A DNA stretch of 64,000 bases. It comes from a bacterium (lineage in GTDB: Bacteria; Myxococcota; UBA727; JAUIJE01). Of this stretch, positions 17,369 through 59,616 are shown piece after piece (position 1 is the stretch's first letter; the number at the start of each line of letters is the position of its first letter). The notes under the pieces are model-generated. The model had not been told where the DNA came from, did no database searches, and was given only the letters and a program-made list of their open reading frames with translations. Location: positions 372,001-436,000 of the forward strand of contig JAUIJE010000004.1 in assembly GCA_030431455.1 (NCBI GenBank), given 5' to 3'. Both the position numbers and the translations under genes were made by a program.

Positions 17369-18667
<1,299 letters not shown>

Positions 18668-36772: not shown

Positions 36773-36779
36773 GCGTCGC

Positions 36780-37157
36780 GTTTCAGGGGCCTGGTAAGCC
36801 GGGTTCTGTCCCGCCGACGGTCGCCCGCCGCCGGGGGCGTTCATTCGTCTAGGGCCGCCGTTGCCGACGGCCTCGAGCGGCACTGGGGGGCGGCGCGGGC
36901 CGCGCCTGGGCCAAAAGCCCGTGCCCCCAACCACCTTGCTCCGGGTGGGGTTTACCCTGCCGCGACCGTCTCCGGCCGCGCGGTGCGCCTTTGCCGCACC
37001 GTTTCACCTGTGCCCCGGCGCTGCCGGGGCAGTCTGTTCTCTGTGGCACTGTCCTTCAGGTCGCCCTGACCGGCCGTTAGCCGGCACCCATGCCCTGCGG
37101 AGCCCGGACTTTCCTCTCGTCATCAAAAACCAGCGAACGCCTCAGACCCTGAAGCGC
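36780..37157 (-). ncRNA. rnpB: RNase P RNA, bacterial type A
   Basis: Catalytic RNA that trims the 5' end of tRNA precursors. Reading the reverse strand, the 5' part has GAGGAAAGTCCGGGCTCC, the middle AGGTGAAACGGTGCGGC and GCAGGGTAAACCCCACCC, and the 3' part ACAGAACCCGGCTTACC: the universal P4 core and ends. The P1 helix is formed by TTCAGGGTCTG at the 5' end and CAGGCCCCTGAA at the 3' end, which sets the boundaries within a few bases. It lies 32 bases after the large cysteine-repeat gene and is followed by its own terminator. Confidence 0.96.
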
Positions 37158-53562: not shown

Positions 53563-55116
53563 ATGACACCTGAAGAACTGATCGCCATGAACATGCCCAC
53601 CGATTCGGTGTGGCTCCCCACCGCCGCGTCGACGGTCGCGGTGGAAGCGGTCGATAAGCCCTACTACCTCATCTACTACACGTGCGTGGTGACGTTCTTC
53701 TTGATCGTCATCCCGATGTTCTACTTCATGGTGAAGTACAAGCGGCGCAGCCCCGACCAAAAGGCGGAGAGCCAAGCCGACCACAGCCAGCTCATCGAGA
53801 TCATCTGGTCGTCGGTCCCGCTCATCTTCTTCGTCATCATCTTCGTCTGGGGCTTCCGCGGCTACATGATGCTGCAGGTCGAGCCGCCCGATTCGATGCC
53901 GATCTACGTGCGCGGCTACCAATGGGGCTGGGAACTCACCTACGTCGAGGACGCGGACCGCAACGTGTTGTCCGAGTCGGCCAAGATCACCGGTCGCGAG
54001 ACCTTCGTGGTGCCCGCGGGCCGACCCGTGAAGCTGATCATGCACTCGTCCGACGTGCTGCACTCGTTCTTCATCCCGAACTTCCGGCAAAAGAACGACG
54101 TGCTCCCCGGTCGCTACACCACGGTGTGGTTCGAGGTGCCCAATGAGTTTGCGGCCACGCCGCCGAAGGACCTCAAGTACCCCGAGGGTGTGACCAGCGA
54201 GGGCGAGAAAATCATCTACGAGACCCTGCACTGGGAGGGCGGCGAGTATCCGATCTTCTGCACCGAGTACTGCGGCAAGGACCACTCGCGCATGCTCTCG
54301 AAGTTCAAGGTTGTGCCGCAGGAGCAGTACAACAAATGGGTGAACGCGGCGTCGTCGCCGGGTGGGCCCAGCATCAAGCGTGGGGCGAAAATCTACGCCA
54401 ACGTGTGCATGGCTTGTCACTCCAAGGACGGCTCCCGGGTGGTCGGTCCATCCTTCAAGAACCTCTACATGCGGAAGGGCAAGACCGCGGACGGCCAGGA
54501 GTACGTGGCCGATGACGCGTACATCAAGCAGTCCATCTACGAGCCCAACCGCATGATCGTGGAGAGCTACCCCCCGGCGATGCCCGCCCAGAACTTGAAC
54601 GACGACGAGCTCACGTCGATCATCATGTTCATCAAGAGCCTGTCCGGGGCCGCACCCGCCGAGGGTGACGCACCGGCCGAAGGCGACGCCCCCGCCGAAG
54701 GCGACGCCCCCGCGGAAGGCGACGCGCCGGCCGACGGGGACAAGCCCGCGGACGAGGCTGCGCCCGCCGAGGGCGACAAGCCCGCGGACGAGGCTGCGCC
54801 CCCCGCGGGCGAACAAGCCGCCGCCGGCCCGCCCAGCGCCGAAGCGGGCGAGAAGGTCTACAAAAGCATCTGCATCGCCTGTCACAGCATCGATGGGTCC
54901 CGTTTGGTCGGGCCCACGATGAAGGCGATGTACGGGCGCAAGACCAAGGGCACCAAAGGTGAAGAGTACGTGCTCGATGACGCGGGGATGAAAAACGCCA
55001 TCCTCAACCCCAACGCCAACATCGCCGACGGCTACCCCCCAGCGATGGTGTTGCCGAAGAAATTGTCCGACGCCGAAATCGACAGCGTCATCCTCTACAT
55101 CAAGACTCTGAAGTAA
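53563..55116 (+). CDS. coxB: Cytochrome c oxidase subunit II with two fused cytochrome c domains
   Basis: 517 residues. Two membrane helices (about 30-55 and 78-103), then the CuA domain with HSSDVLHSFFIP and the cluster in FCTEYCGKDHSRM (two Cys, His, Met). Two cytochrome c domains follow: C282MACH and C437IACH, joined by a repetitive acidic linker of Ala-Pro-Ala-Glu-Gly-Asp units. caa3-type subunit II usually carries one heme; here the second would give a chain from ActE to CuA. GGGAGG lies before the ATG. Confidence 0.95.
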   Translation: MTPEELIAMNMPTDSVWLPTAASTVAVEAVDKPYYLIYYTCVVTFFLIVIPMFYFMVKYKRRSPDQKAESQADHSQLIEIIWSSVPLIFFVIIFVWGFRGYMMLQVEPPDSMPIYVRGYQWGWELTYVEDADRNVLSESAKITGRETFVVPAGRPVKLIMHSSDVLHSFFIPNFRQKNDVLPGRYTTVWFEVPNEFAATPPKDLKYPEGVTSEGEKIIYETLHWEGGEYPIFCTEYCGKDHSRMLSKFKVVPQEQYNKWVNAASSPGGPSIKRGAKIYANVCMACHSKDGSRVVGPSFKNLYMRKGKTADGQEYVADDAYIKQSIYEPNRMIVESYPPAMPAQNLNDDELTSIIMFIKSLSGAAPAEGDAPAEGDAPAEGDAPAEGDAPADGDKPADEAAPAEGDKPADEAAPPAGEQAAAGPPSAEAGEKVYKSICIACHSIDGSRLVGPTMKAMYGRKTKGTKGEEYVLDDAGMKNAILNPNANIADGYPPAMVLPKKLSDAEIDSVILYIKTLK

Positions 55117-57025: not shown

Positions 57026-57679
57026 ATGAGCCCCACCGAAGGCAAGTTCCCACTCGCGCATCACTTCAAGTACCCGCAGCAGCAGCTCGACTCCAACAAG
57101 CTGGGGATGTGGCTGTTCCTCGGGCAGGAGGTGCTGTTCTTCTCCGGCGTGTTCTGCGCGTACACCGTCTACCGCTGGTTGCACCCGGAGGTGTTCGTCG
57201 AGGCCCATCACTTCCTCGACGTGAAGTGGGGCGCGATCAACACCGGCATTCTGTTGTTCTCGAGCTTGACCGTGGCCCTCGCCATCCGATCTGCTCAGAT
57301 CAACAAACAGGGCCAGATCAAAATGTACCTGCTGCTCACCATTGCGTGCGCGTTCGGGTTCATGATCATCAAGTACATCGAGTACTCCCACAAATTCCAC
57401 GTGGGCTTGTTGCCCGGTCAGTACTTCACCGCCGAGAGCCACCTGATTCCCAACCCAGACCAGGTGCAGCAGTTCTTTGGCATCTACTTCACGATGACGG
57501 CTCTGCACGGTTTGCACGTGGTGGTCGGCATCGGGGTCCTGGCTTGGATGTACGTGCGCACCAGCAAAGGGGAGTTCGGCCCGCACAACTACGCGGCGCT
57601 CGAAATCTCCGGTCTGTACTGGCACATCGTCGACATCATCTGGATCTTCCTCTTCCCCCTCCTCTACTTGATTCACTGA
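57026..57679 (+). CDS. coxC: Cytochrome c oxidase subunit III
   Basis: 217 residues with five membrane helices, the short form typical of caa3 enzymes. Motifs: [37 protein letters not shown]-like ([15 protein letters not shown]) and [17 protein letters not shown] at the end. AAGGAGAACGCA precedes the ATG. Stabilises subunit I and its proton pathway. Confidence 0.96.
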
Positions 57680-57691
57680 AAGGGCACGGAC

Positions 57692-58174
57692 ATGAGCGGC
57701 GCATATCGCAATCCCGTCGACCCCCCCCACAATCACGTGACCCCGTTGTGGGTCTACTGGGGCGTGTTCTTCACCCTGCTGGGCCTGACCCTGCTCACCG
57801 TGTTCAGTGCGCAGTTTGACCTCGGGGTGTTCGACATCTTCGTGGCCATGGCCATCGCGGTGGTCAAGGCCACCCTGGTGTTCGCCATCTTCATGCACCT
57901 GTGGTGGGACGAGAAGCTCAACTCGGTGGTGCTTGTCATCGCCTTGATTCTCATGGGTGTGTTCCTGATGTTCGCGGTCACCGACCTGAACAGCCGCGGG
58001 ATGGTCGACCCGGTCAAAGAGAACTTCTCCATCCGCAACGAGATGGTGCAGGAGTACGAAGAGGCCAACCCCGAGGGCAAGCCGCTGCGTGCGTTCAAGA
58101 ACGAGTGGTACCGCGCCCCCAACGAGGAGGAAGAGAAGAAGCTCTTCGACCTCGACGCTGAAGGCGGACACTGA
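57692..58174 (+). CDS. coxD: Cytochrome c oxidase subunit IV (prokaryotic type)
   Basis: 160 residues with three membrane helices (PLWVYWGVFFTLLGLTLLTV, IFVAMAIAVVKATLVFAIFM, VVLVIALILMGVFLMFAV) and the HLWWDEKLNSVV loop seen in the family. The soluble tail of about 60 residues is long and acidic. Last gene of the operon; the tandem hairpin array starts four bases after its stop. Confidence 0.92.
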   Translation: MSGAYRNPVDPPHNHVTPLWVYWGVFFTLLGLTLLTVFSAQFDLGVFDIFVAMAIAVVKATLVFAIFMHLWWDEKLNSVVLVIALILMGVFLMFAVTDLNSRGMVDPVKENFSIRNEMVQEYEEANPEGKPLRAFKNEWYRAPNEEEEKKLFDLDAEGGH

Positions 58175-58177
58175 GCC

Positions 58178-58490
58178 TACGTTTCTCCAGGTCGGCTCTC
58201 GCCGACGTCGAAACGTGATTTCGAACGAGCCCCACCGTGTGCCTCGGCATGCGGCTGGGGCTCGCGTCGTATGGTGACCCCGTCTACGTTTCTCCAGGTC
58301 GGCTCTCGCCGACGTCGAAACGTGACTCGAACGAGCCCCACCGTGTGCCCCGGCATGCGGCTGGGGCTCGCGTCTTATGGTGACCCCGTCTACGTTTCTC
58401 CAGGTCGGCTCTCGCCGACGTCGAAACGTGATTTCGAACGAGCCCCACCGTGTGCCCCGGCCTGCGGCTGGGGCTCGCGTCGTATGGTGT
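58178..58490. repeat. Three tandem copies of a 106/107-bp two-hairpin unit
   Basis: Copies start at 58178, 58285 and 58391; the third is cut off near 58490. Each begins TACGTTTCTCCAGGTCGGC. Unit hairpin A: ACGTTTC ... GTCGGC-TCTC-GCCGAC ... GAAACGT, nested. Unit hairpin B: CGAGCCCCA, about 21 bases, TGGGGCTCG. Copies differ at a few bases, mostly in loops or linkers. It sits between coxD and the quinone-oxidoreductase gene. It could protect or process the 3' end of the act-cox message, bind a protein, or act as a REP/BIME-like element. No protein is coded by it. Confidence 0.92.
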
Positions 58491-58593
58491 CCCCCGGGCA
58501 CCGGGACGGTGCCTCGAGCAGGTGGCGTGAGGTGTCGAGATCCTTGGCTAGTCGAACTGGGCGGGCGTCCTATTTTGAGCGCTCGGAGGAACG

Positions 58594-59616
58594 ATGACCA
58601 CCATGAAAGCCGCGCGCATCTATGACTACGGAGGGCCGGAGGTCTTTCGGGTGGAGGACGTGGCGCGGCCGGTGCCGGGGCCCCACGACGTGCTCATCGA
58701 GGTGCACGCCTCCAGCGTGAACCCGGTGGACACCAAGATTCGAGCCGGCGGTCAGCGTGGCATCGTGCGGCTGAAGATGCCGTGGATTCTCGGTCTCGAC
58801 GTGTCCGGGGTGGTGGTGGCCAAGGGGGACAAAGTCACTGCATATGAGGTGGGCGATGAGGTCTACAGCTCGCCCACGCACCGGCGGCCGGGCTGCTACG
58901 CGGAGTACGTGGCCGTCGACCAGGCCGCGGTGGCGAAAAAGCCGGCGGGCTTGACCCACGCCGAGGCCGCGTCGTTGCCTCTGGTGGGGCTCACCGCCAT
59001 GCGCTGTCTCGAGGACACCCTCCGGGCCGGCCAGGGGCAGGAGCGGCCGCTGCGCGTGCACATCCAGGCGGGGGCGGGCGGGGTCGGGACGTTCGCGATC
59101 CAGATGGCGAAGATGTTCGGGGCCGAGGTCTCGACCACGTGCAGCCCGCGCAACGAGGCGTTGGTGCGATCGCTGGGCGCGGACACGGTCATCGACTACC
59201 GCGCCCAACCCTTCGACGAGGTGGTGCACGGGGCCGACGCCATCCTCGAGTCGGTGGGGGGCGAAGACTGTGAACGCGCGTTGCGGGCGGTGCGCAAAGG
59301 GGGCGAGGTCGCGATCATCACCACCGGCTTGCCCGAGCGAACCAAGCGGTACGGCGGCCTGGGCGGCGCCCTCATGACCGGGCTGTGGATGGCCGGCTGG
59401 GTGGTGCGGGGCCGGTTGCGGGGCATCAAGGCGCGCGCGGTGGTGCGCGCCCCCGACGGTGACGGGCTGCGCCGGCTCACCGAATGGGTCGAGGCCGGTC
59501 ACATCAAACCGGTGGTGGAGCAGTCGTTCGGGCTGGACGACATCGCCGCGGCCCACGCCCTCCTCGAGCGCGGGGGCTTTCGCGGCAAAATCGCCGTCAC
59601 CACGCGCGCGGCCTGA
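58594..59616 (+). CDS. Medium-chain dehydrogenase/reductase, NAD(P)H:quinone-oxidoreductase type
   Basis: 340 residues. GroES-like N-terminal domain (EVHASSVNPVDTKIRAGG) without the zinc-binding Cys/His set, then the Rossmann domain with AGAGGVGTFAIQMAKMFGAE as the nucleotide loop and GADTVIDYRAQPFDEV. Lack of zinc ligands favours a quinone or enone reductase. GGAGGAACG precedes the ATG; another ATG lies nine bases on. Separated from coxD by the hairpin array, so it has its own start. Confidence 0.92.
   Translation: MTTMKAARIYDYGGPEVFRVEDVARPVPGPHDVLIEVHASSVNPVDTKIRAGGQRGIVRLKMPWILGLDVSGVVVAKGDKVTAYEVGDEVYSSPTHRRPGCYAEYVAVDQAAVAKKPAGLTHAEAASLPLVGLTAMRCLEDTLRAGQGQERPLRVHIQAGAGGVGTFAIQMAKMFGAEVSTTCSPRNEALVRSLGADTVIDYRAQPFDEVVHGADAILESVGGEDCERALRAVRKGGEVAIITTGLPERTKRYGGLGGALMTGLWMAGWVVRGRLRGIKARAVVRAPDGDGLRRLTEWVEAGHIKPVVEQSFGLDDIAAAHALLERGGFRGKIAVTTRAA

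Follow-up and report, generated by a model that had tools for sequence, protein, structure and literature searches.

The systems closest to the locus described here act at the 3′ ends of bacterial messages. Stem-loops at such ends are established as blocks to 3′-5′ exoribonucleases (PMC7509114). In the gal operon of E. coli, which has two tandem terminators, RNA terminated by Rho is trimmed until a stem-loop is reached (PMC9927376); this operon thus serves as a worked precedent both for tandem terminators and for trimming to a stem-loop (PMC9927376). An array of hairpins at the end of a cytochrome oxidase (cox) operon in a Myxococcota genome resembles tandem intrinsic (Rho-independent) terminators in that G+C-rich hairpins stand in series directly after the operon's last gene, and its location and predicted folding suit it as a barrier to 3′-5′ decay, which would define a factor-terminated end. 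It differs from intrinsic terminators, one of which the nearest relatives have at the same spot, in that it is without a U-tract and derives from a triplicated two-hairpin unit. Exoribonuclease-blocking stem-loops, including the gal 3′ end, are single hairpins, whereas this array has six predicted ones. Like REP/BIME elements, it consists of intergenic palindromic units that follow genes and would fold in RNA; however, those elements occur as many dispersed copies, and this is one array of three with no copies in relatives.

In the window (the whole 64,000-nucleotide stretch of DNA that was analysed), TRF places the array at 58177–58494, with a period of 106, 3.0 copies, 95% matches and a score of 594. 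The array and its flanking genes are arranged as follows.

57692–58174, plus strand: cytochrome c oxidase subunit IV gene (caa3 type), last gene of the act-cox operon (Pfam COX4_pro, E 1.8e-10)
58177–58283, plus strand: unit copy 1, 107 bases
58284–58389, plus strand: unit copy 2, 106 bases
58390–58495, plus strand: unit copy 3, last bases divergent
58594–59616, plus strand: zinc-type dehydrogenase/quinone oxidoreductase-like gene (Pfam ADH_N, ADH_zinc_N, ADH_zinc_N_2)

The subunit IV gene, of a caa3/aa3 oxidase, is also above the cut-off for NCBIfam TIGR02229 (caa3_sub_IV). Its TGA stop codon occupies 58172–58174. The array, which starts 2 bases past this stop, closes a co-directional gene series that includes coxA, coxB, coxC, a SCO1 gene and a cytochrome c gene of the act-like part (the label "act-cox operon" is taken from an earlier sequence-only reading of this DNA). 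The dehydrogenase gene, TIGR02824-like though under the cut-off, is co-directional and lies about 100 bases past the array end. Elsewhere in the window, 18/36-base repeats at 54651–54819 correspond to an Ala-Glu-Gly-Asp-rich linker joining two cytochrome c domains in an oxidase subunit II fusion protein, a (GTCGCC)n tract of 65 hexamer copies occupies 18065–18455, and a class A RNase P RNA lies on the minus strand at 36779–37152 (Rfam RF00010, 241 bits).

Two hairpins, A and B, are found in every copy of the unit, and a further short hairpin lies just outside it.

58179–58216, plus strand: hairpin A of copy 1 (ACGTTTC/GAAACGT outer; inner stem GTCGGC-TCTC-GCCGAC at 58191–58206)
58226–58264, plus strand: hairpin B of copy 1 (9 pairs, bulge, 8 pairs)
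58286–58323, plus strand: hairpin A of copy 2
58332–58370, plus strand: hairpin B of copy 2
58392–58429, plus strand: hairpin A of copy 3
58439–58477, plus strand: hairpin B of copy 3, one inner pair lost
58496–58514, plus strand: extra short hairpin GGGCACC..GGTGCCT, immediately 3′ of the array and outside the unit

In hairpin A, an ACGTTTC..GAAACGT outer stem encloses GTCGGC-TCTC-GCCGAC, a perfect 6-base palindrome pair with a 4-base gap. Hairpin B pairs CGAGCCCCA with TGGGGCTCG, followed by one bulged C and 8 more pairs. The sequence-only reading had described three tandem units of about 106–107 bases with two hairpins each, which the TRF result and the presence of both hairpins in all copies bear out. 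It had given hairpin B 9 pairs; these outer pairs are present, but the full stem has 17 pairs in copies 1 and 2. By chance, the hairpin motifs of the array would be expected 0 to 0.02 times in the window.

The copies, with unit lengths of 106 or 107 bases, are 96–97% identical and differ at six places in total (five substitutions and a single deleted base). The differences spare hairpin A and the outer 9 pairs of hairpin B; one falls in the hairpin B loop, and an A to C change in copy 3 disrupts an inner pair of B. The earlier statement that changes fall mainly outside the stems is literally true, but one change does break a B pair, and the sparing of the stems is weak (P about 0.04–0.06), six differences being too few to show selection. 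Compensatory stem changes, for which that reading had suggested comparing the copies, are absent from the six differences; the copies are too alike for a covariation test, and searches of this genome and of relatives returned no homologous units beyond the three copies. Since each copy has private differences, it is improbable that assembly produced the array by repeating a single copy. The units follow one another head to tail with no unique spacers between them, in agreement with the earlier view that this is not a CRISPR.

All three copies are predicted to fold better than dinucleotide shuffles, the energies of copies 1, 2 and 3 being −57, −54 and −50 kcal/mol and their z-scores −5.6, −5.1 and −2.9; this was the outcome of the folding that the sequence-only reading had proposed. 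When copy 3 is folded in isolation, the preferred predicted fold of the B region is a shifted alternative (GCCCCGGCC/GGCTGGGGC), because one inner pair is lost. The minus strand of the array is also predicted to fold strongly; any palindrome gives a strong fold on either strand. As at an intrinsic terminator, a predicted stable, G+C-rich hairpin stands soon after the gene end. A terminator scan of the array found no U-tract after any of its hairpins (the tails read GATTTCG, CGTCGTATGG and CGTCTTATGG), and for this reason a canonical intrinsic terminator in the strict sense was rejected. A known RNA family was rejected as well, since the region 57600–59000 gave no match to Rfam 15 covariance models up to E 1.

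Relatives were found with the subunit I protein as query (a subunit IV query of the genome contigs matched nothing). The nearest subunit I, from a Myxococcota MAG, is 73% identical, and the collection is without a close sister genome. The nearest relatives carry a single canonical hairpin-plus-U-tract terminator after the subunit IV gene:

L011: AAAAAGGCCTTCGGGCCTTTTGTT
L012 and L032: GGCACTGACCTTTGGTTGGTGCTTTTTTTTT
L017 and L033: AGCAGGCTGGTGGCCTGCTTTTTTTTT
L018 and L058: CAAAGGCGGCCCGGGGCCGCCTTTG

Within 100 bases of the subunit IV gene end, a stem of at least 8 pairs is present in 26 of 70 relatives (9.1 in shuffles), and a hairpin with a U-tract within about 100 bases in 13 of 70 (0.4 expected from shuffles). 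None of the relatives shows a tandem array of this kind.

We also surveyed gene ends in 2.01 Mb of stretches of this genome, drawn from four of its contigs, using a simple codon model to call genes. Hairpins of at least 8 pairs follow 45% of 409 gene ends, compared with 26% of 710 upstream regions and 17–23% in shuffles, and U-tract terminators are present at 15% of gene ends and 4% of upstream regions. Post-gene hairpins are thus common in this genome, and a minority of gene ends have U-tract terminators. The cox array hairpin ranks 11th of 110 3′ ends in the sample from contig C28, which is strong but not extreme; the unusual feature of this gene end is its triplication. The pattern GAGCCCC-N-GGGGCTC was rejected as a signature of terminators across the genome: its occurrences outside the array are scattered, and the reversed control pattern is commoner.

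Nine intergenic tandem arrays, the cox array included, were found in the 2.01-Mb sample (period at least 30, score at least 120). Several consist of hairpin units, their sequences being unrelated. Of the nine, eight are in regions that contain one or more gene 3′ ends, a proportion that is not significant (P 0.08). Arrays in this genome include the following.

G000:C16:164056-164283 (L160:4056-4283): after tRNA-His, an 88-base unit with a canonical U-tract terminator, 2.2–2.6 copies, 99% identical
G000:C16:114677-114823 (L157:14677-14823): after a gene, between plus- and minus-strand genes, a 43-base unit with two hairpins (CATTCCGGAGGAATG; GCAACGC..GCGTTGC), 3.4 copies
G000:C16:208623-208937 (L162:8623-8937): with convergent genes either side and beside a U-tract terminator, an approximately 80-base unit with hairpin CCTCGCGCGC-TTTT-GCGCGCGAGG, about four copies
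G000:C4:148916-149301 (L214:8916-9301): an 87-base unit, 4.4 copies

The tRNA-His array, 3′ of which lies a third, different terminator, is like the cox array in being of local origin and in consisting of nearly identical hairpin-containing 3′ segments in tandem, and unlike it in having a canonical hairpin and U-tract and an unrelated sequence. These cases support the view that 3′ segments bearing hairpins undergo local tandem duplication in this genome, which does not in itself prove a function for the extra copies. Because unrelated hairpin arrays, the duplicated tRNA-His terminator among them, also sit after genes, local duplication is the origin we favor for the cox array. A dispersed repeat with the core CCCACCCAACTGAGGGCGGGCCTGCGT occurs at 13 sites genome-wide (at most 3 mismatches; 0 for a control pattern), several of them in tandem arrays, with places at C4:148916-149301, C8:841231-841656, C16:297264, C8:539097 and C28:532921; it constitutes a repeat family in this genome that has no relation to the cox array. 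Further intergenic repeats are a 142-base tandem unit that folds strongly (G000:C2:276698-277051, L200:16698-17051; 2.5 copies, 97% matches) and a (GGGAAC)n microsatellite with 69 copies of the hexamer, after which comes a TCCCTC run (G000:C28:117521-117931, L132:17521-17931).

The unit itself was sought across the 7.7-Mb genome, as the sequence-only reading had advised, and is confined to the cox array; the other four matches are fragments of 16–22 bases. Searches of 39 relatives and of 195 genomes from the phylum Myxococcota returned no copies, and the weak matches inspected outside this genome are fragments spanning a minor part of the unit. Its uniqueness to the cox locus indicates that the copies arose in situ, and its absence elsewhere in the genome and in relatives argues that it is neither mobile nor dispersed. 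On these comparisons, the unit can be called neither mobile nor conserved within the genomes searched.

Most likely, then, the array represents a familiar type of signal that was duplicated locally, namely hairpins or terminators lined up in tandem where an operon ends, and not a new genetic element. We assign a probability of about 0.6 to its being a locally triplicated 3′-end hairpin block that both defines the 3′ terminus of the act-cox message and shields it, and that contributes to insulating the following gene. As the sequence shows, one two-hairpin segment past the last cox gene was tandemly duplicated twice; each unit, once in the transcript, is predicted to form two strong hairpins. 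On its way out of the operon, RNA polymerase would pause at the array or terminate after it. Because no U-tract follows any array hairpin, we propose that termination in or after the array would be factor-assisted, by Rho or NusA/NusG. Exonucleases acting 3′ to 5′ would trim the message back to a hairpin and stop there, leaving a defined and protected 3′ end. The three copies could provide redundancy that insulates the downstream dehydrogenase gene, and their number may be largely neutral. Stabilization or processing of the 3′ end, which the sequence-only reading had raised, is partly supported: it fits the place of the array just past the final cox gene, the excess of hairpins at gene 3′ ends in this genome and the single terminators of the nearest relatives. 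It is weakened by the missing U-tract, although the genome does use U-tract terminators.

The main rival is neutrality of copies two and three, with slippage or unequal exchange having tripled an intergenic segment rich in hairpins and the added copies contributing nothing beyond what one did. Palindromes promote replication slippage, the unit is unique to this locus, its copies are nearly identical and hence recent, and the genome has other, unrelated intergenic tandem arrays. The unchanged hairpin A and outer B stem speak against neutrality, weakly given six differences, and we consider it a real if minor possibility. More doubtful is a broader proposal, that the lineage repeatedly amplifies post-gene hairpins in tandem and thereby adjusts read-through or message stability through the number of copies, with the cox array as one of several sequence-unrelated cases.

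The array could instead be a regulatory leader of the dehydrogenase gene, with attenuator hairpins or serial palindromic protein-binding sites. The dehydrogenase gene is co-directional with the cox genes, and the palindrome pair of hairpin A would suit a binding site. However, the array adjoins the upstream stop and is separated from the downstream start by about 100 bases, a sigma-70-like promoter was found neither in nor before it, no Rfam match was obtained, and the site is without the copies elsewhere in the genome that a regulon would need; we regard a leader as distinctly unlikely.

Genes for small RNAs in tandem, or one for a small repetitive protein, are very improbable. A mechanical ORF of 108 codons (58271–58597) overlaps the array, but the unit lengths of 107 and 106 are not multiples of 3 and the frame shifts from copy to copy, for which reason a coding sequence was rejected; the lack of a promoter-like site and of an Rfam match also counts against both. 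A mobile intergenic element, which the sequence-only reading had raised, or a dispersed repeat of REP/BIME or MITE-like type, which a hairpin-rich, intergenic, repeated array might suggest, is refuted for this genome by the distribution given above: three adjacent copies, with nothing but fragments beyond them.

To our knowledge, transcription termination has been little studied in G+C-rich relatives of the myxobacteria. As it stands, the triplicated hairpin block is a local curiosity and not a new system. If our reading is true, this locus would clearly exemplify an operon end made from a triplicated two-hairpin block without a U-tract in such an organism, and tuning of 3′ ends by copy number would be testable on the cox array.
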